From positions 1-64,000 of the forward strand of contig JAFKFH010000026.1 in the NCBI GenBank assembly GCA_017307375.1: a stretch of 64,000 bases of DNA. Direction: 5' to 3'. Positions 3,764-31,979 of the stretch are shown here, piece by piece. How positions within the stretch are numbered: the stretch's first letter is position 1; each line of letters starts with the position of its first letter. Origin of the DNA: Alphaproteobacteria bacterium (GTDB lineage Bacteria; Pseudomonadota; Alphaproteobacteria; Ferrovibrionales; Ferrovibrionaceae). Made by a program: the position numbers and the translations under genes. The notes beneath the pieces are model-generated. The model ran no database searches. It was not told where the DNA came from and saw only the letters and a list, made by a program, of their open reading frames with translations.

Positions 3764-3772
3764 GGCGCCCCT

Positions 3773-11978: not shown

Positions 11979-13466
11979 TCAATGGGCGGTCCGGCTTTCA
12001 GTGACGCGCGGTCCGGGGCCGATGCCAGCGGATGCGATGACGTCCCAGATCTGCGGATTGCGATGATCCGACGCCTTCTGCAGCAAGCGTGACGGGATCG
12101 GCGCCGGCCGCCCGTCGCGCAAGGCCGCCAGCGCGCGCCGGCGCAGCATCTCGGCGCCGGCGAAGGGCAGTTCGCACAGGATATCGACGTTGCCCGAGGT
12201 CGGGCCGAAGAACGACGAGAACAGCCGCAGCTTCTCGTACTGCTCTGCGGCAGCCGACAGAAACCACTCGGCGAGTTGCCCCTTCGGATTGATCATGTCG
12301 TATCGGGGGCATGGCGCCCAGAACGGTTCGTCCAACCCGATCCTGGCGGTATCCGCCGTGATCAGTTGCTCCAGCGCGACGAGTGCATCAGCTTGCCGGC
12401 CAGTTTCCCAGGCGATGCGGGCGAAGGTCGCCAGGCGTGCGGCCGTCGGTGCCTCGGCAACGAGAGCACGCAGCCGCTCGCAGGCATCGAACAGGGCACC
12501 GCAGCCCTCGGGTAGCGGCAGTTCCCGCGACCGCCACCGGCCAAAGGCGACCAGCACGTCGCGATAGGCCGGATCGATGGCGCGACGCGGATCGAACAGG
12601 CCCGGCAAGGCCTTGGCGTAGGCAAACTGGCGCAGCGGCTTGACCGCGGCGAGCGGCGGGGCGCGGTGATCGGGCTGCCACGGGACCAGCGCCTCGACCA
12701 GCAGGCCCCGGGCGGCCAGTGCATGCGCGCGATCCGGCTTGCAGGCGAGGACGTTGAGCTCGTATGCGGCGAGCGGCGCCGACATGTCGCAGGGCACCAG
12801 CACCATTGCACCCGGCAGGACCCGGTAGAAGCGATAGCCGTGCCGCGCCAGCCTGTCGAACGCCTCGGTATTGACCACGCGCTCGGTCTTGGCTTCCAGC
12901 ATGATCAGCGGGCTGTGGCGCCGGAGGAAATTGCCGCCGCCCCCGATGATGCGCGCTTCTTCGCCCTCGGCATCGATCTTGACGAAATCCGGCGCCCCCC
13001 AGCCGCTGGAACTGTCCAAATCGTCGAGCGTCGAGATAGCGACGGTTTCGGCCCCCCCCCCCCCCGCGGTCCTGTCGCCACGGAGGCTTGCAATCTCGCT
13101 GGCGCCGGTCTGGCTCAGCTGCCCACGCCCGGCAGCGTCGGAAAGGGCGATGGGATGAACGACAAGGTTTCGCAGGCCGTTGGCAGCGCGGGCCTCGAGC
13201 AGCAGGCTGCGCGGCGACGATGCCGGCTCGAAGGCGTGAACGGCGCCGGTCGGCCCGACCAGGCGGCCCATCACCAGGCTGTAGATGCCGACATTGGCGC
13301 CGATGTCGAGCGCGGTCATGCCCGGCCGCAGAAAGCGCCGCACGAACGGCATCTCCCGCTCGAACCAGTCCTCCTGTTCGAGAAGGATAAAGGTCGTCAT
13401 CGTCGACAAATTCGACGGCACGAGAATCCTGGTGCCGTCGACGATCTCGATCGACAGGTGCGGCAT
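11979..13466 (-). CDS. FkbM-family methyltransferase with long C-terminal extension and internal poly-G tract
   Basis: 495 residues. The FkbM domain spans about residues 15-215: SAM motif TALDIGANVGIYSLVMG near 50-66, acidic VHAFEPASSP, and the family signature DFVKIDAEGEEARII near 165. FkbM proteins O-methylate sugars or other hydroxyls. Residues 230-495 are not FkbM and I recognise no domain there. Codons 135-138 are four consecutive Gly encoded by a run of 14 G (plus-strand C at 13052-13065), between the SAM motif and the catalytic signature, so slippage would switch the enzyme off. It lies downstream of the class II aldolase gene on the same strand. Confidence 0.85.
   Translation of the reverse strand: MPHLSIEIVDGTRILVPSNLSTMTTFILLEQEDWFEREMPFVRRFLRPGMTALDIGANVGIYSLVMGRLVGPTGAVHAFEPASSPRSLLLEARAANGLRNLVVHPIALSDAAGRGQLSQTGASEIASLRGDRTAGGGGAETVAISTLDDLDSSSGWGAPDFVKIDAEGEEARIIGGGGNFLRRHSPLIMLEAKTERVVNTEAFDRLARHGYRFYRVLPGAMVLVPCDMSAPLAAYELNVLACKPDRAHALAARGLLVEALVPWQPDHRAPPLAAVKPLRQFAYAKALPGLFDPRRAIDPAYRDVLVAFGRWRSRELPLPEGCGALFDACERLRALVAEAPTAARLATFARIAWETGRQADALVALEQLITADTARIGLDEPFWAPCPRYDMINPKGQLAEWFLSAAAEQYEKLRLFSSFFGPTSGNVDILCELPFAGAEMLRRRALAALRDGRPAPIPSRLLQKASDHRNPQIWDVIASAGIGPGPRVTESRTAH
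13052..13065. repeat. Homopolymer tract, 14 C on the plus strand (14 G in the coding strand)
   Basis: An uninterrupted run of 14 C inside the FkbM coding sequence, far longer than any other homopolymer I see in the window (others reach about 7). As written the FkbM frame is open through it. Gaining or losing one or two bases would change the downstream frame; one shifted frame meets a stop at 12905. Tracts of this length are classic sites of slipped-strand mispairing. Confidence 0.95.
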
Positions 13467-13541
13467 TGTCAGGTGACCGTGGGGTGACGCTGCATTTCCC
13501 TGGTTATTGACACGTTCCAGGCGTCACGTCACCCGTTTCGA

Positions 13542-14312
13542 TCAGTCCCGATACCCGGGATTGACCCGGTCGAGCTTGCGCAGCAGGGCCGGCCAGGCGA
13601 GGTTGCCGCCCTTGCCGTGGGTCACTTCGCGGGCCTGGGCCGGGATGTTGTCGATGATCTTGCGGTCGACCAGGCGAAGCCTGCCGCCGCCGGCCTGGGC
13701 CATGATCTGGACCTGGCAGGCGCGTTCCAGCGTGTAGATCGCCTGGAAGGCGTCGGCGATGGTGCGGCCGCAGGCGAGCGTGCCGTGGTTGCGCAGCAGC
13801 ATCGCGTTGCTGCGGCCGAGATCGTCGACCAGCCGCCGCTTCTCCTCGGGGTTCAGCGCCAGGCCCTCGTAGTCGTGATAGGCGAGCGAGACCAGCGGGA
13901 ACAGCGAGGTCTGCGAGATCGGCAGCAGGCCGTCCTCCTGCGCCGAGACGGCGACGCCGGCGGCGGTGTGCAGGTGGATCACGCAGGCGGCGTCGTGGCG
14001 CGCCTCGTGCACCGCCGAATGAATGGTGAAGCCGGCGGGGTTGATCGCATCGGGCTCGTCGTCGATGACGCGGCCGGCCAGGTCGACCTTGACCAGGCTC
14101 GATGCCGTCATCTCCTCGAACATCAGGCCGTAGCGGTTGACCAGGAACTGGTTGTCGGCATCGGGCACGCGGGCCGAGATGTGGGTGTAGATCAGGTCGT
14201 CCCAGCCATACAGCGCCACCAGCCGGTAGCAGGCGGCGAGGTCGACGCGGGTCTGCCACTCCGCGTCGCTGACGCTGCGGTTATGGGCAGCAAGACGGTT
14301 GGCCTGGGCCAT
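13542..14312 (-). CDS. Class II aldolase/adducin-family protein
   Basis: 256 residues. The fold's metal-binding His residues appear in CVIHLHTAAGVAVSA (HxH), with NHGTLACGRT giving the third; THISARVPDADNQFLVN is the usual substrate-phosphate loop region. Family members cleave sugar phosphates or act as decarboxylases, and this subgroup, without a clear phosphate site, is often of unknown substrate. The ATG at 14312 is chosen because GAGGAGG lies 8 bases upstream; the longer frame to 14372 adds an implausible Arg-rich start. It is co-directional with the acyl-CoA synthetase gene, 70 bases downstream of its stop. Confidence 0.88.
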   Translation of the reverse strand: MAQANRLAAHNRSVSDAEWQTRVDLAACYRLVALYGWDDLIYTHISARVPDADNQFLVNRYGLMFEEMTASSLVKVDLAGRVIDDEPDAINPAGFTIHSAVHEARHDAACVIHLHTAAGVAVSAQEDGLLPISQTSLFPLVSLAYHDYEGLALNPEEKRRLVDDLGRSNAMLLRNHGTLACGRTIADAFQAIYTLERACQVQIMAQAGGGRLRLVDRKIIDNIPAQAREVTHGKGGNLAWPALLRKLDRVNPGYRD

Positions 14313-14382
14313 GGGATTTCCTCCTCGTGGATCTGTTTTCCCGAGGCGAGCACAACGCGGCGGCCGGCGCAAGCCCCGTCGG

Positions 14383-16077
<1,695 letters not shown>

Positions 16078-16125
16078 GGCTTCCCTCCCGAGGAAATTTT
16101 GATTTATTGGGACCCTAGCGCGGCG

Positions 16126-18576
16126 CTACATGTTGCGCCAGTCTTCCAACTGCTCGAAGGCATGGGCAGCCTGGTAGACCAGCGCCTCGCGCCAATGCCG
16201 GCCGATCAGCATCATCCCGATCGGCAGACCTTCCGACAGGCCGCAGGGTACGGTCATCGCCGGGTGGCCGGTGATGTCGAAGGGGGCGGTATTGCCGATC
16301 ATCTCGAAGGCGCGCTGCAGCACCTCGGCCAGCGGGGCGCCGGGGGCGGGGATGCGCTGGGCCTTGATCGGCATCGTCGGCATCAGCAGGAGATCGCAGG
16401 AATCCAGCGCGGCATCGTAGGCGAGCCGCAGCTGACGGGCCAGGTTCTGCGCCTTGGCGTAATAGTGGCCGCGATAGTGCTTCTGGAAGTACTCGCCGGC
16501 AAACATCGAGATCTTCAGCGAGTCCGACAGCTCGTCCGAGCGCGCGCGCCAGGCGGAATGCGCGTCCAGCAGGCTGGTGACGTAGAGGCCCTTCCAGTTG
16601 GTGCCGAAGCCGTTGCCCTTCATCATCAGGTCGGTCAGGCCTTCCAGCGCGATCGGCGTCCAGATCGCCAGGCCATGCGCATGCATCGGCACCGAGATCT
16701 CGGCGACCTCGGCGCCCAGCTCGCGGAAGCGGTTGGCGGCGGCACGCACCTTGGCATCGACATCGGCCTCGGAATTGGCCAGGCCGAAACCTTCGCGCAC
16801 GATGCCGATCTTGAGGCCGCGCACGCCGCGGCCCAGCGCCGCGGTGTACTTGTCGACGCGCGGGGCATATTGCCGGGGGTCGAGGCCGTCCTCGCCGGCG
16901 ATGACCTCGAGCAGCAGCGCGTTGCCCGCCACCGTCGTGGTGATCGGCCCGGCATGGTCGATCGTGATCTCGATCGGCATGATGCCGGTATAGGGGACCA
17001 GGCCGTGGGTCGGCTTCATGCCGTAGGCGCCGCAGAACGAGGCGGGCATCCGGATCGACCCGCCCTGATCGCCGCCGATCGCCAGCTCGACCTCGCCGGC
17101 GCCGACCAGCGCGCCGCAGCCCGACGACGAGCCGCCGGCGATGTAGCCCATCTTCCACGGATTGTGCACCGGGCCGGTGGCGTTGGTGTGGCTGCCGCCG
17201 GACAGGCAGAAATATTCGCAATGGGCCTTGCCGACGATGGTGCCGCCGGCGTCGAGGATGCGGGTGACGACGGTGGCGTCGACATCGGGGACATAGCCTT
17301 CCAGGGTCGAGGCGCCGTTCATCATCGGCACGCCGGCCAGGCAGACATTGTCCTTCAGCACGACCTTGCGGCCGGCCAGCGGCCCGCGCGGCGCGCCGCG
17401 CACCTCCGACTTGACGTACCAGGCGTTCATCGGGTTCTCGGCCGCCGACGGGCGATAGCCCGGGGTGCGCGGATAGTCGACCGGCGGCAGGAAGTCCGGC
17501 ATCGCGTCGACGACGTCATAGGCCTGGAAGGTGCCTTCCATCAGCGTGAGGAACTCGCGCAGGCGCTCGTCCGACATCGACATGCCGAAGCTTTCGACGA
17601 TGTCGCGCATCTGGCTTTCGGTGGCACGCTTGACGGTCATGTAGGGAACCCTGGAATTGGCCAAAGGCTGAGGCTGGTGGCCGGCCGCGCGGGCGGCCGG
17701 CTGATGGGTGGCGATCGGGGCCGAGCCGGGCGCCGGGCCAAGCTGGGCCATCATCGGCGCCGGCGCCGGACGCATGCGGGCGGGGCCTGCCGCCGGCACC
17801 GCGAACCCGGGCACCGCCGCTGCCGGCCGTGCGCTGCCGCCCCCGCCGGCGGCGGCGCGGCGCGAGGCGCCGAAGCCGACGAATTCGTCGATGATCGCGG
17901 CACTCTTCATGTCGGCGGCGGCGACCTCGCCGACGATGCGGCCCTTCTGCAGGATCAGCACGCGGTCGGAAAGCTGGGTGATGAAGTCGAGGTTCTGTTC
18001 GACCAGCACCACCGTCAGGCCGCGGGCGGCGACCAGGCCTTTCAGCAGGACCGCCATCTCCTTGATGATCGACGGCTGGATGCCCTCGGTCGGCTCGTCG
18101 AGCAGGGCCAGCTTGGGTTCGCCGATCAGGCAGCGGGCCAGGGCCAGCAACTGCTGCTCGCCGCCCGACAGCGCGCCGCCGCGGCGGTCGAGCAAGCGTT
18201 GCAGCCGCGGGAATTCCTTGACGATCTGGTCGAGGCGGCCGGCTTCCTCGCGCGCCAGCCCCATGCGCAGGTTGTCGGCGACGCTGAGATTGGGAAAGAT
18301 GCCGCGGCCCTGCGGCACGTAGCCGAGGCCGAGCCGGTTGCGCTCGTGCGGCTTCAGGGGGCTGAGATCGACGCCGTCGAAGGCGACCCGGCCGGCCGAG
18401 GGGCGGATATAGCCCATCAGCGTCTTCAGCAGCGTCGACTTGCCCATGCCGTTATGGCCGAGGATGCCGACGGTCTCGCCCTTGGCGACGGTGAACGACA
18501 GGTCGTGCAGGATCGGGATCTTGCCGTAGCCGGCGGCCAGGCCCTCGACGGTCAGCAGGGGACGATCGCCGCTCAT
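16126..18576 (-). CDS. Fusion of a UrtE/LivF-like ABC transporter ATPase with an amidase
   Basis: One uninterrupted frame of 816 codons. Residues 1-236 are a complete ABC ATPase: Walker A GHNGMGKST (40-48), signature LSGGEQQLLALAR, Walker B LLDEPTEGIQPSII, the last diagnostic of the urea/amide-type UrtE branch. Residues 237-312 are an Ala/Pro/Gly-rich linker. Residues 313-816 are a full amidase-signature hydrolase: catalytic Lys in KVVLKDNVC, cis-Ser in GGSSSG and nucleophile Ser in GDQGGSIRMPA. An ATG at codon 313 (17640) could also start a free amidase, but only a weak AGGG precedes it. The start at 18576 lies one base after the stop of the UrtD-like gene. The amidase would hydrolyse the imported amide on the cytoplasmic face of the transporter. 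Confidence 0.85.
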   Translation of the reverse strand: MSGDRPLLTVEGLAAGYGKIPILHDLSFTVAKGETVGILGHNGMGKSTLLKTLMGYIRPSAGRVAFDGVDLSPLKPHERNRLGLGYVPQGRGIFPNLSVADNLRMGLAREEAGRLDQIVKEFPRLQRLLDRRGGALSGGEQQLLALARCLIGEPKLALLDEPTEGIQPSIIKEMAVLLKGLVAARGLTVVLVEQNLDFITQLSDRVLILQKGRIVGEVAAADMKSAAIIDEFVGFGASRRAAAGGGGSARPAAAVPGFAVPAAGPARMRPAPAPMMAQLGPAPGSAPIATHQPAARAAGHQPQPLANSRVPYMTVKRATESQMRDIVESFGMSMSDERLREFLTLMEGTFQAYDVVDAMPDFLPPVDYPRTPGYRPSAAENPMNAWYVKSEVRGAPRGPLAGRKVVLKDNVCLAGVPMMNGASTLEGYVPDVDATVVTRILDAGGTIVGKAHCEYFCLSGGSHTNATGPVHNPWKMGYIAGGSSSGCGALVGAGEVELAIGGDQGGSIRMPASFCGAYGMKPTHGLVPYTGIMPIEITIDHAGPITTTVAGNALLLEVIAGEDGLDPRQYAPRVDKYTAALGRGVRGLKIGIVREGFGLANSEADVDAKVRAAANRFRELGAEVAEISVPMHAHGLAIWTPIALEGLTDLMMKGNGFGTNWKGLYVTSLLDAHSAWRARSDELSDSLKISMFAGEYFQKHYRGHYYAKAQNLARQLRLAYDAALDSCDLLLMPTMPIKAQRIPAPGAPLAEVLQRAFEMIGNTAPFDITGHPAMTVPCGLSEGLPIGMMLIGRHWREALVYQAAHAFEQLEDWRNM

Positions 18577-18577
18577 C

Positions 18578-19297
18578 TCAGGAACCCAGATAGACTTCGC
18601 GGACGCGCGCGTCGTCCAGCACGGTGTCGACATGATCCTCGATCAGCACGGCGCCCTGGTGGAAGACGGTGACGCGATCGCCGATCATCCGGATGAACTG
18701 CATGTCGTGTTCGACAATGATCATGGTACTCCGCCGGTTGATGTCGCGGATCAGCGCGGCCAGCGCGTCGACCTCCTCGTGGGTCATGCCAGCCGCCGGC
18801 TCGTCGAGCAGCACCAGCCAGGGTTCGGCGGCGACCACCATCGCGATCTCGACCCGCTGGCGCTGGCCATGGGCCAGCTCGCCGACCTTGCGGTCGCGCA
18901 GATCGGCCAGGGCGTAGCGTTCCAGCGCCTCGTCGGTCCGGGCCTCGGCGATGCGGCCCGCGTGATGGCGGGCCAGCGCCAGGAACATGTTCTCGCGCAC
19001 GCTGAGGCCGTTGAACACGCTGGGCGTCTGCGTCTTGACGCCGATGCCGGCCTGGGCCATCTGGCAGGGCTCGGCCCCGGTCATCCGGCGCTCGCGCACC
19101 AGCACCTCGCCCGCGCTGGGCTTGAGCTGGCCGGTCAGGCATTTGAAGAAGGTCGACTTGCCCGCGCCATTCGGTCCGATCAGGCAGCGCAATTCGCCGT
19201 CGCGCAGGGTGAAGTCGACGCGGTCGACCGCGACGACACCGCCGAAGCGCATGGTCAGCGCGCGGGTCTCCAGCACCACCTCGCCGCGCGCGCTCAT
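18578..19297 (-). CDS. UrtD/LivG-like ABC transporter ATP-binding protein
   Basis: 239 residues. Walker A is GPNGAGKST near 42, the signature is the variant LAHGQRQRVEIAM, and Walker B is LVLLDEPAAGM. The LAHGQ form of the signature, and KTQTPSVFNGLSVREN before it, are typical of the urea/short-amide transporter branch rather than of branched-chain amino acid LivG. It forms the ATPase pair with the fused UrtE-like domain encoded next. The start overlaps the permease stop by four bases (ATGA), so translation is coupled. Confidence 0.9.
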   Translation of the reverse strand: MSARGEVVLETRALTMRFGGVVAVDRVDFTLRDGELRCLIGPNGAGKSTFFKCLTGQLKPSAGEVLVRERRMTGAEPCQMAQAGIGVKTQTPSVFNGLSVRENMFLALARHHAGRIAEARTDEALERYALADLRDRKVGELAHGQRQRVEIAMVVAAEPWLVLLDEPAAGMTHEEVDALAALIRDINRRSTMIIVEHDMQFIRMIGDRVTVFHQGAVLIEDHVDTVLDDARVREVYLGS

Positions 19298-20286
19298 TTG
19301 CGGCGTCCGCGCGACAGCAGCTGGCCCAGCGTCGGCATCAGGCCCTTGGGCAGCAGCAGCACGACCAGCACCAGGATGGCGCCCAGCACGAAGGCATTGT
19401 TGACGACCGATTGCTGGCCCAGCAGCGTGGTCAGGAACTGGATCAGCACGGCGCCGACGATCGGGCCGATCAGCGTGCCCAGCCCGCCGACGATCACCCA
19501 GATGATCGCGGTGGCCGACTGGGCCAGGCCGAAGACGCCCGGGCTGACGAAATTGCCCCAGTTGGCGAACAGCACCCCGGCCAGCCCCGCGATCCCCCCG
19601 CCGATGGCAAAGACCGCGGTCTTGTAGAGGCGCACGTCGTAGCCGAGCAGTTCGGCCCGCGTCTCGTTCTCGCGGATTGCGACGACGATGCGGCCGAAGC
19701 GGCTGCGCAAGAGGCCGTGCAGGCCGAAATAGACCGCGATCAGCAGGCCCATGGCCAGGTAGAACATCTCGTCGGGCATCAGCGGCGAACCGGCATCGCC
19801 CGGCCAGTTCAGCGTCGGGAAACCGGGAATGCCGTTGAAGCCGCCGAGGCGGGCGTCGCCGATGACATAGGTTTCGTTGGCGGTCGAATTGACGAACTTG
19901 AACAGGATCAGCGCCACGACCAGCGTGATCACCCCGAGATAGACGTCCGACAGCCGGCCATAGAACATCATCGCGCCGAGCAGGGCTGCGAAGGCCGCCG
20001 GCAGCAGGATCGCCAGCAGGAACGGTCCGCTCGATTCCCCCACGTTGATCGCGGCGACGGCATAGGTATAGGCGCCCAGGCCGAAGAAGGCGGCCTGGCC
20101 GAAGCAGAGGATGCCGCCATGGCCCCAGATGAAGCCGAGGCTGAGGGCGAACAGCGCGTAGACGATATAGATCGTCAATTCGAGCAGGGTGACGACGTCG
20201 ACCACCCAGGGCAGGCCGACCAGAAGGACCAGCCCGATGGCCAGCACGAGCAGATGACGGTTGCGTTCGGAAAGACCTGACGTCAC
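19294..20286 (-). CDS. UrtC/LivM-like ABC transporter permease
   Basis: 330 residues with about eight to ten hydrophobic segments and the LivM-type loop FGRIVVAIRENETRAELLGYDV that contacts the ATPase. LSLGFIWGHGGILCFGQAAFFGLGAY near residue 50 is the conserved N-terminal motif of this permease class. The start is a GTG, preceded by AGGTG, four bases after the stop of the LivH-like gene. It partners the LivH-like permease to form the membrane channel. Confidence 0.9.
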   Translation of the reverse strand: MTSGLSERNRHLLVLAIGLVLLVGLPWVVDVVTLLELTIYIVYALFALSLGFIWGHGGILCFGQAAFFGLGAYTYAVAAINVGESSGPFLLAILLPAAFAALLGAMMFYGRLSDVYLGVITLVVALILFKFVNSTANETYVIGDARLGGFNGIPGFPTLNWPGDAGSPLMPDEMFYLAMGLLIAVYFGLHGLLRSRFGRIVVAIRENETRAELLGYDVRLYKTAVFAIGGGIAGLAGVLFANWGNFVSPGVFGLAQSATAIIWVIVGGLGTLIGPIVGAVLIQFLTTLLGQQSVVNNAFVLGAILVLVVLLLPKGLMPTLGQLLSRGRRK

Positions 20287-20290
20287 GGCA

Positions 20291-21157
20291 TCACACCTGG
20301 CGCGAGAAGAACCGGCCGGTGATGCCTTGCGGCAGCAGGCGCAGCAGGATGACGGCGGCGATCAGCATGGCGACGTCGCCCCAGACCGGGGTCGACGACA
20401 GGGTCACGACCTGGGTGATGGTGCCGAACAGCGTGGCCGAGGACAGCGTGCCGGCGACGACGGCGGCACCACCCGAAATGACCGTGATGAAGGCCTTGGC
20501 GACGTAGAGACCGCCGGTGGTCGGCGTCAGCCCGGTCAGCGGCGCCAGGATGCCGCCGGCCAGCCCGGACAGCGCGGCGCCGACCGTGAAGGTGATCATG
20601 TAGATGCGCTGCGGATTGTGGCCGAGCCCCGAGGCCATGTCGGACGACTGCATCGCGCCGCGTGCGATCAGCCCGGCACGGGTATAGCGCAGCGCCAGCA
20701 GGATGCCCGCCATCACCAGGAAGCCGGCGGCGATGATGAACAGGTTGTAGCCCGACAGCTGGTAGGCCCCGACGCGATAGCCGGCGATCGGGGTCGAGAT
20801 GCCGGTGGTGGTATTGCCGAAGATCATGGTGACGAGGCCGGTCAGCAGCAGGCTGAGCCCCCAGGTCGCCAGCATCGTGTCGAGCATACGGCCGTAGAGG
20901 AAGCGGATGACCAGCCGTTCGACGATCAGGCCGATGGCGCCGACGACGATCGGCGCCACCACCAGCATGGCGACGTAGATGTTGATGCCGGCCTTGACCG
21001 AGACGATGGCGGTATAGCCGCCCAGCATCAGGAATTCGCCGTGGGCGAGGTTGATCACCCGCATCATCCCGAACACCACGGCGAGCCCGGCGGCAATCAA
21101 TGCCAGGCTCGCCACCGCGTAAAGGATCTCGACTATGACGACTACCGCGAAATCCAT
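20291..21157 (-). CDS. UrtB/LivH-like ABC transporter permease
   Basis: 288 residues, hydrophobic throughout, with the motif INLAHGEFLMLGGYTA near residue 35 that marks the LivH/UrtB class and RYTRAGLIARGAMQSSDMASGLGHN in the cytoplasmic coupling loop. It lies between the substrate-binding protein gene and the LivM-like gene, the usual order for this transporter type. Confidence 0.9.
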   Translation of the reverse strand: MDFAVVVIVEILYAVASLALIAAGLAVVFGMMRVINLAHGEFLMLGGYTAIVSVKAGINIYVAMLVVAPIVVGAIGLIVERLVIRFLYGRMLDTMLATWGLSLLLTGLVTMIFGNTTTGISTPIAGYRVGAYQLSGYNLFIIAAGFLVMAGILLALRYTRAGLIARGAMQSSDMASGLGHNPQRIYMITFTVGAALSGLAGGILAPLTGLTPTTGGLYVAKAFITVISGGAAVVAGTLSSATLFGTITQVVTLSSTPVWGDVAMLIAAVILLRLLPQGITGRFFSRQV

Positions 21158-21191
21158 GACGCGGACTGCCTCCCCCTCGACGCCGTTCGGG

Positions 21192-22421
21192 TCAGATCTT
21201 GATCTCGTACTGGATGTTGGAGTTCGGGTTGGCCTTCAGGTCGCAGACCGCCTGGGTATCGAGCGGCGGCACCTGCGGGATCTGCTTGACCACGGTCAGC
21301 TTCTGGTCCTTGACCTCGATCACCACGACGTCGAGTGTGCAGTGATGGGTCTTGGGATCGACCGTGATCTTGCCGCCGGGACCTTCGATCGACATGCCGG
21401 TTTCCAGCGCCTCGATCACCTTCATCCGGTCGGGCGTGCCGGCCTTCTTGACGGCCGCCGCCCACAGCATCATGCCCTGGTAGGTCGCGACCGCCAGCTC
21501 ATGGATTTCCTTGACGCTGTCGGCACCGAACTTCTTGCCCCAGGCGGCGAGGAACTTCTTGTTGGCCGGGGTGTCGATCTCGGCCGACCAGTTGTAGGCG
21601 AGCAGGATGCCGTCGCCTTCCTCCTTGGTCAGCACGATCTGCTCGTTGCCGACGCCCAGCGTGGTCGACGCCATCGGGATCTTGGCCTTCATGCCGGCCG
21701 CTGCCCACTGGCGGTAGAACGACATATGCGCGCCGCCGACCAGCGCCGAGACGACGAAATCGGGCTTGGCCGCCTGGATCTTGGCGATCGTCGCACCGAA
21801 GTCGGAAACGTCGAGCGGGAAGAAGTCGACCTGCAGCGTCTGGCCGCCGTTCAGCTTGACGTAGTGCTGGACCCACTTCGAGATGATCTGGCCGTAGTTG
21901 TAGTCGGCCGCGAGGATGTAGACCTTCTTGCCCCAGCGGCTCATCGCATAGGGGATCAGCGCCTCGACCGACTGCGAGGGCGCGACGCCGGTGCAGAAGA
22001 TGTTGCGGTCGCAGACGCCGCCTTCGTACTGGGTGTTGTAGAAATAGAGCGTGTTGAAGCGCTTCAGCGTCGGCCGGATCGCCTCGCGCGAGGCCGAGAG
22101 GATGCCGCCCATGACGACGGCGACTTTGTCCTTCAGCGCCGCCTGCTGGCCGAACTGGGTGTAGAGCGGGATCTGCGACTGGGTGTCGTAGGAGATTTCC
22201 TTGACCTGCTTGCCGGCCAGCCCGCCGGCGGCGTTGATCTCGTCGATGGCCAGCTGCATCGCTTTCTCCATCGGCTTGCCGTAGGCATCGAAGATGCCCG
22301 ACAGGTCATGGATCGAGGCGACGTCGATCGTCGCGCCCTGGGCCATCGCCCGCCCGGCGATGGTGGCGGCGATCGATGCGGCGGCCGAACCGGCGAGGAA
22401 TGTTCTGCGATCGAGCGTCAT
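21192..22421 (-). CDS. Urea/amide-type ABC transporter periplasmic substrate-binding protein
   Basis: 409 residues. The N terminus has a Tat-like signal (DRRTFLAG, hydrophobic Ala stretch, RAMAQ cleavage near residue 28). The mature part matches the UrtA/FmdD group of type I binding proteins (HDLSGIFDAYGKP, GGILSASREAIRPTL, LAADYNYGQ). GAAGGGGAG precedes the ATG. It heads a transporter operon whose last gene carries an amidase domain and no urease genes are present, so the ligand is more likely an amide or amidated compound than urea. That is inference from context. Confidence 0.9.
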   Translation of the reverse strand: MTLDRRTFLAGSAAASIAATIAGRAMAQGATIDVASIHDLSGIFDAYGKPMEKAMQLAIDEINAAGGLAGKQVKEISYDTQSQIPLYTQFGQQAALKDKVAVVMGGILSASREAIRPTLKRFNTLYFYNTQYEGGVCDRNIFCTGVAPSQSVEALIPYAMSRWGKKVYILAADYNYGQIISKWVQHYVKLNGGQTLQVDFFPLDVSDFGATIAKIQAAKPDFVVSALVGGAHMSFYRQWAAAGMKAKIPMASTTLGVGNEQIVLTKEEGDGILLAYNWSAEIDTPANKKFLAAWGKKFGADSVKEIHELAVATYQGMMLWAAAVKKAGTPDRMKVIEALETGMSIEGPGGKITVDPKTHHCTLDVVVIEVKDQKLTVVKQIPQVPPLDTQAVCDLKANPNSNIQYEIKI

Positions 22422-22463
22422 GGCTCTCCCCTTCGTTGATGTGCTGCGCTGCCCTGTGAAGTC

Positions 22464-24062
22464 TTAGGTAGTCTGCCTCGGCTCGATCGCCTTCGACAGG
22501 CCGCTGAGGCCGCTGCCGATATCGAGGCCGATTTCCTGGCCCAGCTTCTGCACCGCGGGCAGTTGCAGGGCCATGCCCAGGATGCCGTCGACTGCCTGGT
22601 TGATCAGCGGCTTGTCGCCGCCGCCACCCCCGCCGTCGGCCGAACCGCCGACCGAGCCCGCGGCACCGAGGCCGGAAATCTGGTTGATGCGGATCGATTG
22701 GATCTTCTCGGCCGGCTTGACCAGATGGGCGACCAGTTCGGGCAGCGCCTTGAGCCGCCGCTCCTCCAGCCGCATGCGGATGATCGGGTCGGCCAGCGCG
22801 TTCTCGGCCGCGATCAGTGCCGCGCGGCCCTCCGACTGGGCCAGCATCGCGTCGCGCTCGGCGGCGGCCTTGGCCGCGGCGGCCTCGGCCTCGGCGCGCG
22901 CCTTGTCGCGGATCGTCTCGGTCTCGATGCGCAGCTTCGAGGCTTCGACCGCCTCTTCCTCGGCCGACCGGATCGCGGCGATTTCGCGGGCGCGTTCGGC
23001 CTGGACCTTTTCCTTCTCGGTCTGCACCGCCTCCATCGCCAGCACCACCGAGGAGCGTGCCTGTTCGGCGGCCGCCTCGGCGGCGGCTTCCTCGGTCTTC
23101 TTCTGGGCCAGCCGGATGGCGTTGTCGCGCCGGTTCAGCTCGGTCTCCAGGATCGCTTGCAGGTCGCGCTGGCGCAGTTCCTGGTCGCGCGCGATTTCCT
23201 GCAGCTTGACCTCGCGCTCGCGGGCGATGCGCGCCTGTTCGGCCCGCGCCTGGGACAGCGACTGCTGCTCGGCGATCTGGGCCTGGGCATCGGCCTTCAG
23301 CTGCTCGACGGTGCGATGCTGGCTCAGCCGCGCCTGTTCCTGTTCCTGCTCGATGATGATCACGCGCTTCATCGCATCGAGCTGGCTTTGCCGTACCGCG
23401 ACATCGGCATCGGCCTCGATCGCGGCACGCTGCTTCTTGTTGTTCGCGATCACCTCGGCCAGACGCCGCAGGCCGACGGCATTGAACGCGTTGTTCTCGT
23501 CGACGGCGCCGAACGGGGTCTGGTCGAAGCGGCGCAGCGCCACCGATTCGAGCGACAGGCCGTTCTGCGCCAGGCTCTCGGCCACCAGTTCCTTGACTTC
23601 GCGCACATAGGCGCCGCGGCCCTCGTGCAACTCGTCCATCGTGTGGCGGGCGGCGACGGCCTGCATCGCGTCGATCAGCCGGCCTTCGATCAGGTCGGCC
23701 AGGTCCTGCGGCCGGAACGCCTTGCCGCCCAGCGCCTGGGCCGCGGTCGCGACACCCTGCGGCGTCGGCGTCACGCGGACGGTGAACTCGACCTCGACGT
23801 CGACGCGCAGCCGGTCGCCGGTGATCAGCGCCTTGGCGCCGCCGCGCGCGGTCTCGATCCGCGTCGTCTTCATGTTGACTTCGGAAATCTGGTGCAGGAA
23901 CGGCAGGGCAAGCGTGCCGCCATCCATCACCACCCGCTGGCCGCCCGCACCGGTGCGGATCAGCGCCACGTCGCGCGTGGCTTTGCGGTAAAACCGGTTC
24001 AAGAACAGGATAACCGCCGCGATCACGATCACGGCCGCTATGGCAACGAACAGCCACACCAC
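22464..24062 (-). CDS. Flotillin-like SPFH/Band 7 membrane protein
   Basis: 532 residues. One N-terminal membrane segment (residues 3-22) is followed by an SPFH domain to about 200 (DVALIRTGAGGQRVVMDGG, EVEFTVRVTP), then a long Glu/Ala/Arg/Gln-rich coiled coil from about 205 to 440, and a Gly-rich spacer (SADGGGGGGDKP) before the C-terminal tail. Flotillins assemble into membrane scaffolds that organise other membrane proteins. It lies directly upstream of the amide transporter operon on the same strand (42 bases), so it may share its transcription; a functional link is only possible, not shown. Confidence 0.9.
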   Translation of the reverse strand: MVWLFVAIAAVIVIAAVILFLNRFYRKATRDVALIRTGAGGQRVVMDGGTLALPFLHQISEVNMKTTRIETARGGAKALITGDRLRVDVEVEFTVRVTPTPQGVATAAQALGGKAFRPQDLADLIEGRLIDAMQAVAARHTMDELHEGRGAYVREVKELVAESLAQNGLSLESVALRRFDQTPFGAVDENNAFNAVGLRRLAEVIANNKKQRAAIEADADVAVRQSQLDAMKRVIIIEQEQEQARLSQHRTVEQLKADAQAQIAEQQSLSQARAEQARIAREREVKLQEIARDQELRQRDLQAILETELNRRDNAIRLAQKKTEEAAAEAAAEQARSSVVLAMEAVQTEKEKVQAERAREIAAIRSAEEEAVEASKLRIETETIRDKARAEAEAAAAKAAAERDAMLAQSEGRAALIAAENALADPIIRMRLEERRLKALPELVAHLVKPAEKIQSIRINQISGLGAAGSVGGSADGGGGGGDKPLINQAVDGILGMALQLPAVQKLGQEIGLDIGSGLSGLSKAIEPRQTT

Positions 24063-24164
24063 CTTAAAGCCTCCCCCGCTCGTGCCGCGCCACCTGCCGG
24101 CCCCGCGACTATCGCCAGAAAATTAACGTGGAAATATTTTGCAGTTCAAGCGAAATTCGCCACA

Positions 24165-25316
24165 TCAATTGGCGTGCGAAAGCCCCGGGCCGGCGAGATT
24201 GCGCAGCAGGCGGAATTCGATCCCATCGGCCTCGGCCAGATGAATCGGCGTCAGCCGCCGCCTGTTGTCGAGATAGCTGGAGCCGCGCGTGGTCGAATAG
24301 CCCAGCGGCCGCACCGGCGCGAAATCGTCGCGGTCGAGCGCCTCGAGCAGCCCGAACCCCTCGTAGATCGACTGGCCCAGCGCCGACAGCACCGGGGCGC
24401 GCACCCCGAATCGGGCGCGGTAGCGTTCGATGAACGACAGGTTGCCGTCGGTCGCGATGTTCGCGAAATAGCCGGCGGCGGCGTAGAGGCCCGCGGTATT
24501 CTCCGGCCCGATCGCCAGCAGCATGTTCTCGTCGGTCGCCATCGACAGCCGCAGCATCCGGCGGTCCAGGCCGCGGGCGGCGAAGTCCCGGCTGAAATGG
24601 ACCGAATCCTGGCCGACCAGCGACATCAGCACCGCATCGGCCCCCGACCGGGCCAACTCGTCCAGCGCCACATCGAAATCTTCAGTACCAAGCGGCAGAT
24701 AGCGATCGACCAGCACGCTGCCGCCCATCTCGCCGATATACCGGCGGGCGAGCGCATGGCTGCGCCGTGGCCAGACATAGTCGTTGCCGATCAGGGCCCA
24801 GCGCGTCGCCCGGCGATGGCTGGTCAGCCAGGCCAGGGCGGGACGCAATTGCTCGTCCGGGGTTTCGCCCAGGCAATAGACGCCGCGATGCGCCTCGCCG
24901 CCTTCGTACAGCGGGGTGTAGATGTAGGGCACCTGGCCCGACAGCGTTTCGGCCAGCGCCATGCGCACGGCACTGATATGCATGCCGACGACGGCATCGA
25001 TCGCGTCCGTGGCCACCAGGTCGGCAGCAACGCCCGCGACCCGGTCGGGATCCTCGCCGGCATCGGCGATGACCAGGCTGACGGCCCGGTCGCGCAGCCC
25101 GCCGCGGCGATTGATTTCGTCGACCGCCAGCTCGGCGCAGGCCAGACAGGTCGGTCCCCAGATGCCCGCCGGCCCGGACATCGGCACAAAGAGCCCGATG
25201 CGGATCTGATCGCTTGCGACGCTACGCCGGTCCCCGTCGCGCCGAGCGGCCAGGGGCAAAGACTGCGGGGGGACACGTCGCCCCCTTCCACCTAGTCCAA
25301 GCGTGGGGCTTTCCAT
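24165..25316 (-). CDS. AmiC-like periplasmic-binding-fold protein without signal peptide
   Basis: 383 residues. From residue 35 it is a type I binding protein (QIRIGLFVPMSGPAGIWGP, VVGMHISAVRMALAETL, WALIGNDYVWPRRS) of the group that includes the amide sensor AmiC. The N terminus is Arg/Gly-rich and has no hydrophobic signal, so it should be cytoplasmic. AmiC proteins sense short amides and control amidase expression; I see no AmiR-type antiterminator gene here, so the output is unknown. A consensus TATAAT lies five bases before the ATG, suggesting a leaderless transcript. It points toward the flotillin and amide transporter genes. Confidence 0.85.
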   Translation of the reverse strand: MESPTLGLGGRGRRVPPQSLPLAARRDGDRRSVASDQIRIGLFVPMSGPAGIWGPTCLACAELAVDEINRRGGLRDRAVSLVIADAGEDPDRVAGVAADLVATDAIDAVVGMHISAVRMALAETLSGQVPYIYTPLYEGGEAHRGVYCLGETPDEQLRPALAWLTSHRRATRWALIGNDYVWPRRSHALARRYIGEMGGSVLVDRYLPLGTEDFDVALDELARSGADAVLMSLVGQDSVHFSRDFAARGLDRRMLRLSMATDENMLLAIGPENTAGLYAAAGYFANIATDGNLSFIERYRARFGVRAPVLSALGQSIYEGFGLLEALDRDDFAPVRPLGYSTTRGSSYLDNRRRLTPIHLAEADGIEFRLLRNLAGPGLSHAN

Positions 25317-25321
25317 GGAGC

Positions 25322-25352
25322 ATTATAAGGCGCGTGTACGATCGTTTGTCAC
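25322..25352 (-). promoter_or_regulatory. Candidate sigma-70 promoter, possibly leaderless
   Basis: On the minus strand GTGACA (plus 25347-25352, 5 of 6 to the -35 consensus) and a perfect TATAAT (25322-25327) are separated by 19 bases. The ATG of the AmiC-like gene begins six bases after the -10 box, where transcription would start, and there is no ribosome binding site. Confidence 0.5.
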
Positions 25353-25781
25353 GACCGAAAAGTGACCGAAAGAAGGCTGCTGCCGCGCCTGCTTCGGCCC
25401 GGGGTGGTCAGAGTGCCGGGGCATCGGTCGGGGATTGCGAATATATAATTGTTGTTTGTATTTATGATCCTCGCCCTTGGCTTTCGTCTTGGACCGTTGC
25501 GACGAAGTCGGCATTTGACCCGGCAATTTTCGGTCGATGCGAGAGGTTGAAGTCAGTACCGCCGACCAGCCGAAGACGAGCGCTCAACAATCGCGTCTGC
25601 GTCATTGTCATCAATGGGACACAAAGGGGCCGGAGAGGCGACTTTCTTGCTTCTGCCACCGGCGTTTCGGCCCAACAGGTCGGGTATGTATTTGCAGGCG
25701 CTCGAAAAAGCGGCATTGCTTGCCTATGGCTGAGGCAGAATGCTATACGCGGAAACAGTTGCCCCCAGCGGGATTCATGCC
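25353..25781 (+). other. Gene-free interval between divergent AmiC-like and MarR genes
   Basis: About 430 bases with lower G+C than the surroundings and mixed short open frames on both strands, none with a family-like sequence or a good start. An A+T-rich patch (GAATATATAATTG) lies near 25439-25450. A weak promoter for the MarR gene is possible just upstream of it (TTGCTT at 25716-25721, TGCTAT at 25741-25746, 19-base spacing). I see no RNA gene or repeat. Confidence 0.5.
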
Positions 25782-26201
25782 ATGCAGACCACGCTCGCCA
25801 CCCTGATCAAGCAAGCCGAACGCCGCGTCCAGGCCAGGCTTGAAAGCCTGCTCGGCAGTTCGGAACTGTCGGTCGAGCAGTGGCGCGTACTGGAAATCCT
25901 CGGCGACGGCGAGGGCCGGGCGATGACCGAACTGGCCGGCGAGGCGCTGCTCAACCTACCGGCGCTGTCGAAGATGGTCGACCGCATGGTGTCGCGCTCG
26001 CTGATCTTCCGGGCGCCGGATGCGGGCGACCGGCGCAAGGTGCTGGTGTTTGCTTCCGATCGCGGCCTCGATCTCTATCGGCGGCTCAAGCCCGAGGTCG
26101 ACGCCTGCCATGCCGGCATCGATGCCGCGCTGGGATCGAAGCGCGCCGGCGAGCTGAAGCAGTTGCTGGCGCATCTGATCGAAGGCACGGCGGCGGCCTG
26201 A
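25782..26201 (+). CDS. MarR-family transcriptional regulator
   Basis: 139 residues. The winged-helix core is clear: LSVEQWRVLEILGDGEG, TELAGEALLNLPALSKMVDRM (recognition helix) and the wing RAPDAGDRRKVLVFASD. The ATG at 25782 gives the usual MarR start (MQTTLATLIKQ); an upstream ATG at 25740 adds 14 residues without support. The dioxygenase gene begins five bases after its stop, so the two form an operon, and the regulator probably controls itself and that enzyme in response to an aromatic or similar ligand. Confidence 0.9.
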   Translation: MQTTLATLIKQAERRVQARLESLLGSSELSVEQWRVLEILGDGEGRAMTELAGEALLNLPALSKMVDRMVSRSLIFRAPDAGDRRKVLVFASDRGLDLYRRLKPEVDACHAGIDAALGSKRAGELKQLLAHLIEGTAAA

Positions 26202-26206
26202 CTGCG

Positions 26207-27262
26207 GTGACGCCGGACGATCTGCCCCCCGAACAGGCCGGCCCCGCCGCCTGGTACGGGTCCGAGGTCGCGTCGCGCGGCGACTGGATTCTGACGCTCG
26301 ATGCCGCTGACGTGGCCGAGATTGCCGCGGCGACCCGGCCGCTGGCCGCGGCCGGGGCCGACATCGCGGCGCTGACCCCGCAGGATTTCCCGCTGCCCCG
26401 GCTTGGTCCCCGCCTCGCGGCGATGCTGGGCGACCTGATGGAAGGGCGCGGCTTCGCGCTGATCCGCGGTCTCGATGTCGCCGGCTGGTCGATGCGCGAG
26501 GCGGCGACCGCCTTCTTCGGCCTGGGCCGGCATCTCGGCCGCGCCTGCTCGCAGAACGGCAAGGGCCATGTGCTGGGCCATGTCCGCGATCTCGGCCTGG
26601 CCTCGACCGAACCGGCGGTGCGCATCTATCAGACCGCCGAGCGCCAGACCTATCATACCGATTCCTGCGACGTCGTCGGGCTGCTGTGCCTGCGCACGGC
26701 CAAGGCGGGCGGCCTGTCCGCCCTGGTCTCGTCGGTGACGATCTTCAACGAGATGCGCCGCCGCCGCCCCGACCTGCTGCGCCTGCTGTTCCAGCCGGTC
26801 GCGACCGACCGGCGCGGCGAAGTGGCGCCCGGGCAGAAGCCCTATTTCATGATCCCGGTCTATTCCTGGTATCAGGGCCGTCTGTCGGCGATCTACCAGC
26901 GGCAATACATCGATTCGGCGCAGCGTTTTCCCGATGCCCCCCGCCTGACGCCCGAGATGGTCGAGGCGCTCGACCTGTTCGACGCGCTGGCCAACGATCC
27001 GGCGCTGAACTTCCACATGGCGCTCGGGCCCGGCGACATGCAGTTCGTGTTCAACCACACCATGTTGCATGACCGCACGGCCTTCGAGGACTGGCCCGAA
27101 CCCGACCGCCGGCGGCATCTGTTGCGGCTGTGGCTGGCGCCGGACGGCGCCCGGCCGCTGCCCCCGGTCTTCGCCGAGCGCTTCGGCACGGTCGAGCCGG
27201 GACGGCGCGGCGGCATCATCCTGGAAGGCACCCGCCCCAACGCGCCGCTCGAAGCCGTCTAG
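26207..27262 (+). CDS. TauD/TfdA-family Fe(II)/2-oxoglutarate dioxygenase
   Basis: 351 residues from a GTG at 26207. The first two iron ligands are in TYHTDSCDVVG (HxD); the distal His is in FNHTMLHDRTAFED and the 2-oxoglutarate Arg in RRHLLRLWL. GFALIRGLDV near residue 85 is the usual entry motif. The substrate is not evident. The longer open frame to 25880 overlaps the MarR gene in a different frame and is spurious. The stop TAG shares the palindrome CTAG with the stop codon of the convergent permease gene. Confidence 0.85.
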   Translation: MTPDDLPPEQAGPAAWYGSEVASRGDWILTLDAADVAEIAAATRPLAAAGADIAALTPQDFPLPRLGPRLAAMLGDLMEGRGFALIRGLDVAGWSMREAATAFFGLGRHLGRACSQNGKGHVLGHVRDLGLASTEPAVRIYQTAERQTYHTDSCDVVGLLCLRTAKAGGLSALVSSVTIFNEMRRRRPDLLRLLFQPVATDRRGEVAPGQKPYFMIPVYSWYQGRLSAIYQRQYIDSAQRFPDAPRLTPEMVEALDLFDALANDPALNFHMALGPGDMQFVFNHTMLHDRTAFEDWPEPDRRRHLLRLWLAPDGARPLPPVFAERFGTVEPGRRGGIILEGTRPNAPLEAV

Positions 27263-28224
27263 CCGGCCGAGCGCGCCCCGCGGCCGTAGACCAGCAGCAT
27301 CACGATGATGACGGCGCCATAGATCACCTGGCGCCAGGCCTCGGGCATCTGCATCACCGACAGGATCGACTGCAGCACGGTGATCAGGACGACGCCGGCG
27401 ACGGTGCCGGCATAGCGGCCACGGCCACCGAGGATATTGGTGCCGCCCAGCACCACCGCTGCAATCGCCGGCAGCAGGTAGGCATCGCCCATCGCCTGAT
27501 AGGCCTTGGTCGAGTATCCGGCCAGCAGGATGCCGGCCAGCGCCGCCAGCGCGCCCGAGATCGCGAAGGCCGCGACGATCACCCGGCCGGTCGCCACGCC
27601 CGACAGATAGGCCGCGCGTTCGCGGTTGCCGATCGCGTAGACATAGCGGCCCAGCGTGGTCCGGGTCAGCAGGAATGCCATGGCCGCCCCGACCGCGATC
27701 CAGACCAGCAGCGCGTTGGGAATGCCCAGCAGGCTGCGGCCGACGGCCAGTCCATGCATGGCCGGCGTCGCGTGGTCCTGCGGCGCGAAGCCGCCGGTAT
27801 GCAGCACCATCAGCCCCTGTGCCACCGCGTTGGTCCCCAGCGTGAAGATCATCGACGGCAGGCGCAGCACGGCGACGCCGAGGCCGTTCACGAGGCCGAA
27901 GGCCGCGCCGCACAGCATGCCGAACGGGATGGCGGCCCAGGCCCAATCGGGCGCCCACCCGGCCAGCGCCGTCGACATCATGCCGCCGACGGTGACGACC
28001 CAGGGGATCGACAGGTCGATATGGCCGAGCAGGATGACAAGCATCGCCCCGGAGGCGATCAGGCCGAGGAAGGCGGCGACCTGCAACTGCTGCAGCAGAT
28101 AGCCGGCCGACAGGAAGTTCGCCGAATAGACGCTGCCGACCGCCAGCAGCACGCCGGTGCAGGCGAAGACGATCAGGGCGGCCGGGTCGATGCTGCGGCG
28201 GAAGGCGCGGACCAGGGCCTGCAT
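27259..28224 (-). CDS. Ribose-type sugar ABC transporter permease
   Basis: 321 residues, eight or more membrane segments, with the RbsC-class motifs ILLGHIDLSIPWVVTVGG near 65 and LGGTNILGGRG in the coupling region. The start at 28224 (MQALVRAF) is chosen over the in-frame ATG at 28245 because GAAGGAGG lies seven bases upstream of it. It is the second of two related permeases in the cluster, as expected for a heterodimeric channel, and is convergent with the dioxygenase gene. Confidence 0.9.
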   Translation of the reverse strand: MQALVRAFRRSIDPAALIVFACTGVLLAVGSVYSANFLSAGYLLQQLQVAAFLGLIASGAMLVILLGHIDLSIPWVVTVGGMMSTALAGWAPDWAWAAIPFGMLCGAAFGLVNGLGVAVLRLPSMIFTLGTNAVAQGLMVLHTGGFAPQDHATPAMHGLAVGRSLLGIPNALLVWIAVGAAMAFLLTRTTLGRYVYAIGNRERAAYLSGVATGRVIVAAFAISGALAALAGILLAGYSTKAYQAMGDAYLLPAIAAVVLGGTNILGGRGRYAGTVAGVVLITVLQSILSVMQMPEAWRQVIYGAVIIVMLLVYGRGARSAG

Positions 28225-28237
28225 GCGGGCGCCTCCT

Positions 28238-29218
28238 TCAGCCATAGACGTCGAGACGGTTGCGCAGCTTGAGCAGGCGCAGCGCCCCCAGGCTGACCGC
28301 CACCAGCAGCACCGCGCCCTGGAACAGCGGCTGCCACAGCGGCGGCAGGTCGAAGACGAATAGCAGGTCCTCGATGGTGCGCAGGACGAAGGCGCCGAAC
28401 ACCGCGCCGATGGCCGAGCCGACGCCGCCGAACAGCGAGACGCCGCCGATGACCACCGCCGCGATCGAATTGAGCGTGTAGGTGCCGCCGATCGGTGCCG
28501 ACGCCTCGCCCGACCAGGTCAGGCAGGTCAGCAGCAGCCCGGCGAGGCTGGCCAGCAGGCCGGACAGCGCATAGGCGGTCAGCTTCGCCCGGCGGATGTC
28601 GAGCCCCGAGAGGTAGGCCGCGGTCTCGTTCGAGCCGATCGCGTAGGCGGCGCGGCCCACGACCGAGCGGCGATAGGGCAGCCAGACGACGGCCACGACC
28701 CCGAGCAGCACGACCAGCATGGTCGGCACCGGCCCGGCGACCTGGCCGGTCATCGCGTCGGCGAAGCCTTCCGAGATGCTGCCGCCCGGCGTCGGGCGCA
28801 GGGCGAGCGCGATGCCGTAATAGACCGCGCCGGTGGCAAGCGTGGTGATGATCGGTTGCAGCCGGCCGTAGACGATGATCGCGCCGTTGATCAGGCCGCA
28901 GCCCAGCCCGGCCGCAAGCACGGCGACGATGCCGAGGGTCACCTGCAGCGGCGTTCCCTGCACGAGGCTCGCAGCCAGGCAGTTGGCCAGCACGAAGACC
29001 ATGCCGACCGACAGGTCGAGCCCGGCGGTGATCGCCGGCAGGGTCTGGGCCATCGCGACCAGTGCCAGCAGAACGCCCTTGTTGGCCGCGGTCAGCAGCA
29101 CACCCGGGGTCAGCCCGGCGCTGTGATTGGCGACGTAGAGGGTGAACATGGCCATGAAGACGGCAAGGCTGAGCAGGATTCCGCGATTGGCCCTGGCATG
29201 ATGGCGCCAGTCGGTCAT
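28238..29218 (-). CDS. Ribose-type sugar ABC transporter permease
   Basis: 326 residues with RbsC-class features: AITAGLDLSVGMVFVLAN near 60, YAIGSNETAAYLSGLDI in the cytoplasmic loop and IGGVSLFGGVGSAIGA. The ATG at 29218 overlaps the stop of the ATPase gene (ATGA), fixing the start; the longer frame upstream is antisense shadow. It pairs with the permease at 27259-28224. Confidence 0.9.
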   Translation of the reverse strand: MTDWRHHARANRGILLSLAVFMAMFTLYVANHSAGLTPGVLLTAANKGVLLALVAMAQTLPAITAGLDLSVGMVFVLANCLAASLVQGTPLQVTLGIVAVLAAGLGCGLINGAIIVYGRLQPIITTLATGAVYYGIALALRPTPGGSISEGFADAMTGQVAGPVPTMLVVLLGVVAVVWLPYRRSVVGRAAYAIGSNETAAYLSGLDIRRAKLTAYALSGLLASLAGLLLTCLTWSGEASAPIGGTYTLNSIAAVVIGGVSLFGGVGSAIGAVFGAFVLRTIEDLLFVFDLPPLWQPLFQGAVLLVAVSLGALRLLKLRNRLDVYG

Positions 29219-30735: not shown

Positions 30736-30746
30736 GATCGCCGGCC

Positions 30747-31892: not shown

Positions 31893-31979
31893 GGCGCTTC
31901 CTCCTCGGTATTGCCAAGCCATTCCCGTCAGGGATTCATACCGATTGGCACGGCATTTCCCTGTCCGGTCGGCCCGGCT

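Follow-up and report, generated by a model that had tools for sequence, protein, structure and literature searches.

The closest described relatives of the locus reported here are the ABC importers for urea and short-chain amides (UrtABCDE and FmdDEF) and the amidases of the nitrile pathway, represented by the enzyme of Rhodococcus sp. N-771 (PDB codes 3a1i and 3a1k) and the subfamily PRK07235. Importer ATPases with an additional C-terminal domain are also known (MalK, ModC, MetN, and NrtC), the extra domain being a regulatory or binding domain. According to the accessible part of one report, the nitrile pathway proceeds from amide to acid to acyl-CoA (PMC3511329), and the available portion of a second describes an aldoxime-nitrile pathway with an acyl-CoA synthetase in P. 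chlororaphis B23 (PMC5391958). A five-gene cluster similar to the transporter genes described below, located beside amidases, was earlier read as an amide importer in the accessible part of a third (PMC3098086).

The window analyzed here (the whole stretch of 64,000 nucleotides from contig JAFKFH010000026.1 of an alphaproteobacterium of the Ferrovibrionaceae) shares with UrtABCDE a five-subunit set of homologous proteins, but all of its subunits fall under the urea cut-offs and one of its ATPases carries an enzyme. The amidase resembles those of the nitrile pathway in its full-length family match and its fold, yet it is fused behind an ATPase, and nitrile hydratase or aldoxime dehydratase genes were found in 0/19 fused loci as compared with 2/35 unfused loci in the stretches fetched. 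Like MalK, ModC, MetN, and NrtC, the fusion has an extra domain behind the ATPase; unlike in these, the domain is an entire catalytic enzyme, attached through a long linker. As in the P. chlororaphis B23 pathway, to the extent that the accessible part of that report describes it (PMC5391958), the amidase and an acyl-CoA ligase follow in sequence, whereas the enzymes of the window come together with a dedicated importer and a flotillin. Both protein families are already known and the protein stands in RefSeq as 'amidase'; what appears to be new is their conserved union in one protein and the operon that accompanies it. No description of an ATPase-amidase fusion was found among the titles and opening lines of abstracts in the openly licensed literature.

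Architecture of the Fused Protein

The fused gene is a single, stop-free open reading frame of 816 residues in which, as the preliminary description had stated, a complete ABC ATPase is joined to a complete amidase (Table 1). The mechanically called frame can be prolonged to an ATG at 18633, which lies inside the UrtD-like gene (end at 18578), and 18576 is therefore the likely start. The Pfam model ABC_tran matches residues 23–163 (1.7e-34) and the Pfam model Amidase residues 390–800 (1.9e-94). The NCBIfam model for PRK07235 (NF005565) covers residues 313–815 nearly at full length (profile positions 1–505 of 506) with 814.7 bits against a cut-off of 545, which places the amidase within this subfamily. 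The best NCBIfam model for the ATPase is UrtE (TIGR03410) at 259 bits, under the equivalog cut-off of 285.8, so that the earlier designation UrtE-type holds in the sense of UrtE-like but not by the NCBI cut-off.

Table 1. Features of the fused gene and the surrounding operon, in window coordinates
Feature	Position	Strand	Basis
Class II aldolase/adducin-type protein	13542..14312	-	Pfam/NCBIfam; among compared loci, window only
Acyl-CoA ligase (PRK12583 subfamily), directly downstream of the fusion	14383..16077	-	Pfam/NCBIfam, BLASTP
Fused gene, ABC ATPase + linker + amidase	16126..18576	-	ORF, Pfam/NCBIfam; the architecture recurs in 18 other loci
Amidase domain with Lys408, Ser483, Ser507	16129..17640	-	NCBIfam, motif, and structure matches
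Internal ATG (Met313), from which a free amidase of 504 residues would presumably be started	17638..17640	-	Met conserved; weak RNA structure
Ala/Pro-rich linker, residues 237–312 (76 residues up to Met313), predicted disordered	17641..17868	-	Composition; AlphaFold2
AGG codon of Arg309, at codon -4 relative to Met313, presumed core of an internal Shine-Dalgarno site	17650..17652	-	Codon comparison
ATPase domain, residues 1–236	17869..18576	-	Profile match and motifs
UrtD/LivG-type ATPase, separate partner	18578..19297	-	Pfam/NCBIfam profiles
UrtC-like permease	19294..20286	-	Pfam/NCBIfam profiles
UrtB-like permease	20291..21157	-	Pfam/NCBIfam profiles
Amide/urea-type substrate-binding protein	21192..22421	-	Profiles; under both urea cut-offs
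Flotillin of this operon type	22464..24062	-	Profile; BLASTP across loci
Second periplasmic-binding-protein-like protein, AmiC-like	24165..25316	-	Profile, BLASTP
Divergent MarR-type gene	25740..26201	+	34% identical to the Sulfitobacter one

The ATPase half contains all motifs of a LivF/UrtE-type ABC importer ATPase (Walker A, Q-loop, LSGGQ-type signature, and Walker B), and GHNGMGK(S/T)T, the Q-loop Gln89, LSGGEQQ, and Asp160-Glu161 are present in 19/19 fused proteins. At the usual place of the H-loop His all 19 have an invariant Gln; this place and those of the other ATPase motifs are the ones usual in such proteins. In the amidase half, Lys408, Ser483, and Ser507, which we take to be the Lys-cisSer-Ser triad of the amidase signature family, are invariant in 19/19 fused proteins. 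Numbered from Met313 these residues are 96, 171, and 195, and Asp503 is 191; the accessible part of a study of the Rhodococcus amidase names Asp191 and Ser195 as active-site residues (PMC11205548). The nearest solved structures, by sequence and by fold alike, are Thermotoga 1ji0 for the ATPase and the amidase of Rhodococcus sp. N-771 (3a1k, 3a1i) for the second half, the latter with 48% identity in the fold match. Each half by itself is an unremarkable member of its known family, and the second is a predicted amide-hydrolysing enzyme.

The linker is Ala/Pro-rich, as previously described, and its length, given before as 75 residues, becomes 76 when counted up to Met313, the limits depending on where the ATPase is taken to end. 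Across the 19 fused loci it spans 36–99 codons with an Ala plus Pro content of 16–49%, and it is the fastest-changing part of the protein in all eight pairs compared. Between the genome G015 and the UBA7691 MAG, for example, the ATPases are 98%, the amidases 99%, and the linkers 70% identical, with the gaps in the linker in-frame. In the AlphaFold2 model of the window's protein (mean pLDDT 72.4, pTM 0.54, with parts of the amidase core at low confidence, and used only for the limits of linker and domains), pLDDT is below 50 for residues 234–313. These observations fit a free tether that has been kept open.

Distribution and Origin of the Fusion

A search of other genomes for the same architecture, which had been proposed as a check on the preliminary description, yielded 18 further loci with the same single frame, and the comparisons reported here used these 19 fused loci, the window included. 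The fused frame was found in 6/96 genomes drawn from relatives (the window's own, G014, G015, G017, G082, and G092), in 4/142 drawn from the class (the window's own, G000, with G082, G092, and G099), and in 1/150 drawn from the phylum, the window's own, the three draws overlapping; the fusion is thus rare, as had been supposed. A scan of genome contigs, which is no census, gave 11 fused loci among the best 80, and a plasmid record of Pseudosulfitobacter gave a single-piece match over 86% of the query. Locus L031 and the contig of genome G017 were taken as the same record. The alphaproteobacterial carriers belong to Hyphomicrobiales (Salinarimonas and Aquibium), Sulfitobacter, and a Sneathiellales MAG, and two further carrier MAGs are labelled Gammaproteobacteria (Acidiferrobacteraceae and Immundisolibacterales), where a binning error is possible. 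A phage collection contained no match at 1e-60.

The same single frame is present in Salinarimonas rosea DSM 21201 and Aquibium sp. ELW1220, whose record titles bear no MAG label, and two complete Sulfitobacter plasmids carry the fusion as a single CDS annotated 'amidase'. Because the frame recurs in such records, an assembly slip or frameshift artefact is unlikely, and this explanation was rejected.

In a tree of 63 amidases, obtained by a quick search with SH-aLRT as the only support measure, the 19 fused proteins group in a single clade (SH-aLRT 99) that contains no unfused row, and the nearest rows outside it, G083 and G002, have separate genes. As the fused loci fall into a single clade of the amidase tree, the fusion appears to have arisen once in this sample, with no reversal seen, and several origins need not be invoked. 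The 19 loci were picked for having both halves in one stop-free frame, so that the lack of a stop in 19/19 is true by selection; the clade defined on the amidase alone is independent of that choice, and none of its members has a stop or frameshift. Among unfused loci whose amidase has at least 50% identity, an ATPase gene lies within 500 nt upstream on the same strand in 25/35, and 20 of these 25 have an ATPase of at least 44% identity. Adjacent ATPase and amidase genes are therefore the likely ancestral state.

Some loci show other arrangements. Behind a separate ATPase gene, L040 (8439-11495) and L061 (4051-7105) have two tandem amidases, 62% and 51-52% identical to that of the window, and in L067 (8701-9999) and L072 (2362-3549 and 9009-10184) the same kind of transporter lies near amidases only 30-33% identical to the window's. 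Importers of this kind thus seem to be combined with other types of amidase as well.

The Operon Surrounding the Fusion

The preliminary description had covered the fusion and left out the rest of the operon, including the flotillin and the acyl-CoA ligase. Every transporter subunit scores below the NCBI urea-family cut-offs, all seven urea models for UrtA-D (TIGR03407, 03669, 03409, 03622, 03408, 03727, and 03411) being under their curated cut-off. This disfavours urea as the cargo, and an amide, as proposed before, is upheld as the likely one; missing the urea cut-offs is no proof of amide transport. The AmiC-like protein might, at a guess, be an amide sensor. The class II aldolase/adducin-type gene is probably no core part of the operon, since it was seen only in the window among the compared loci. 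A promoter scan of 13400-26000 gave no sigma-70-like site and nothing usable.

The flotillin and acyl-CoA ligase accompany the fusion in all 18 fused loci with a long enough contig (L044 is cut on both sides) and in 0/35 unfused loci (27 of these with flanks of sufficient length), in a BLASTP search with the window's proteins at 1e-8 that distant versions could escape. Weaker ligase matches (30-31%) do occur in unfused loci, and in L046 a 31% identical ligase lies directly behind the amidase, so the ligase is not unique to the fused type. As all fused loci form one clade, the association of fusion, flotillin, and ligase counts as one evolutionary change. Twelve genomes were searched for flotillins: all seven with the fusion have a copy in the operon, and G000 and G082 have further copies elsewhere, at 33-39% identity, whereas among five unfused genomes only G045 has one, about 100 kb from the amidase. 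The operon flotillin thus looks dedicated to this operon. In L031 of the UBA7691 MAG (2145-3772) the flotillin is in two pieces in different frames, by sequencing error or as a broken gene.

A Possible Internal Translation Start

The internal ATG at 17640, suggested before as a possible source of free amidase, encodes Met313, which is present in 19/19 fused proteins at the edge of the low-confidence part, with a varying residue in front of it. The fourth codon upstream is Arg in eight sequences and AGG in all eight, as compared with an AGG share of 1-8.5% among the Arg codons in the matched parts of those operons (2/204 in the window's). At 33 other columns with at least five Arg in the same eight sequences, AGG is absent from 28 and occurs once in five, and the other Arg codons in all 19 linkers are AGG in 4/87 cases; the comparison was post hoc, AGG having been noticed earlier in the Shine-Dalgarno output, and the eight sequences are related. 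It is plausible that this AGG, nine bases before the internal ATG, is a Shine-Dalgarno core.

Pairing with the anti-Shine-Dalgarno sequence has a median of -6.2 kcal/mol at the internal ATG, against -3.5 at 586 other in-frame ATGs and -6.1 at 15 unfused amidase starts, and a core motif is found in 12/19 fused genes and none in 7/19. The suggested start is a real, conserved ATG with start signals at the family level. In the window's own gene the Shine-Dalgarno pairing is weak, at -3.8 kcal/mol and in 12th place among 32 in-frame ATGs, its p value from synonymous shuffles moving from 0.10 to 0.19 when the test was repeated with a longer anti-Shine-Dalgarno tail. In a six-member Roseobacter-type subclade the signal is not significant (0.08 against other ATGs, 0.46 by shuffles).

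The RNA around the internal ATG is weakly structured, with a mean folding energy of -7.9 kcal/mol, whereas the remaining in-frame ATGs of these genes average -13.9. In the region -30 to +20 it ranks among the six least structured in-frame ATGs in 17/19 genes and is the least structured of 31 in the window. Against synonymous shuffles the window gives a p value of 0.03 and 17 genes jointly 9e-5, with 7/17 below 0.1 singly, values that overstate the significance as the rows are related. Counter-examples are L033 (rank 31 of 33) and L036 (rank 11 of 24), and for L138 and L041 folding is stronger than in the synonymous shuffles. Taken together, the invariant Met, the rare AGG that has been kept, and the weak RNA structure suggest an internal start at the level of the family, from which the cell may also make free amidase.

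A Model for the Fusion and Its Alternatives

We consider it on the whole probable, from the make-up of gene and operon, that the locus encodes an amide importer with an amidase tethered to its motor, which forms a heterodimer with the UrtD-like ATPase and works with the CoA ligase, the flotillin, and an internally started free amidase. The binding protein would hand a carboxylic amide to the two permeases, and the UrtD-like ATPase, paired as a heterodimer with the ATPase half of the fusion, would power import. Attached to that ATPase half by a flexible tether of ∼75 residues, the amidase would sit at the cytoplasmic mouth and split the incoming amide into ammonia and a carboxylic acid, which the acyl-CoA ligase from the next gene would activate and trap. 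The operon flotillin would probably gather transporter, amidase, and ligase in the membrane, and a second, internal ribosome-binding site of the same gene would provide free amidase. Where the preliminary description allowed one or two amidases per ATPase dimer, one agrees with this arrangement and two would not, if the partner is the UrtD-like ATPase, which has no amidase. That import is coupled to hydrolysis at the membrane, which had been put forward as a direct reading of the gene, is here something that we infer; an untethered amidase might do equally well.

Among the other explanations, it is possible, though we rather doubt it, that the fusion only fixes stoichiometry and co-expression, neighbouring genes having been fused once and the tether having no role in passing the substrate. 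In its favour are the closeness of the two genes in most unfused loci, where the ATPase gene starts no more than 500 nt upstream, the single origin, and the poorly conserved linker sequence, but a clade of 19 rows without an unfused member speaks against it, and an internal start would break a fixed stoichiometry. The linker also bears on the idea, which we hold very improbable, that the amidase serves the ATPase as a regulatory domain, bound amide or acid slowing ATP hydrolysis. The C-terminal domains of MetN and ModC provide a precedent for such trans-inhibition, and an extra C-terminal domain on an importer ATPase with invariant active-site residues is consistent with it; however, a variable linker of 36-99 residues, predicted to be disordered in the window's protein, would be a poor transmitter of conformational change, and catalytic residues are kept as for an enzyme.

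A disordered linker would also be open to proteases, and the fusion might then be a precursor that is cut there, with two separate proteins acting in the cell. We think this very unlikely, as no common motif was apparent by eye among the linkers and relatives achieve the same with separate genes. Hardly any more credible is a translated but useless linker, with the ATPase and an internally started amidase as the working units: the signs of an internal start would be accounted for, but although the linkers change fast, neither a stop nor a frameshift is seen in any member of the clade, which rests on the amidase alone. The reading that we prefer, the tethered amidase at the importer, can be extended, rather speculatively and with the chances against it, to a pairing of tethered with free amidase chains. 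Amidase dimers would then join the transporters into clusters organised by the flotillin, working at the membrane as a single unit for the import, hydrolysis, and CoA activation of amides.

Whether an imported nutrient passes directly from transporter to enzyme is difficult to examine for a pair of separate proteins, and here the two are joined covalently. The fusion has stayed joined over large evolutionary distances, with the internal start seemingly kept as a switch between tethered and free enzyme, and the operon offers a flotillin with a concrete, testable client.

Further Genes in the Window and Its Genome

A nitrile hydratase alpha gene, adjoined by a beta-like gene, is present in the window's genome on a contig other than that of the fusion (L133, G000:C3:379100-379648), and the cell could make amides itself from nitriles. 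Beyond the operon, the window contains at 27259-31922 parts of a second ABC system, with two BPD_transp_2 permeases, a Peripla_BP_4 binding protein, and ABC-like matches at ~29250-30720. A TauD-type dioxygenase gene (25880-27262, plus strand) lies close to this second system.
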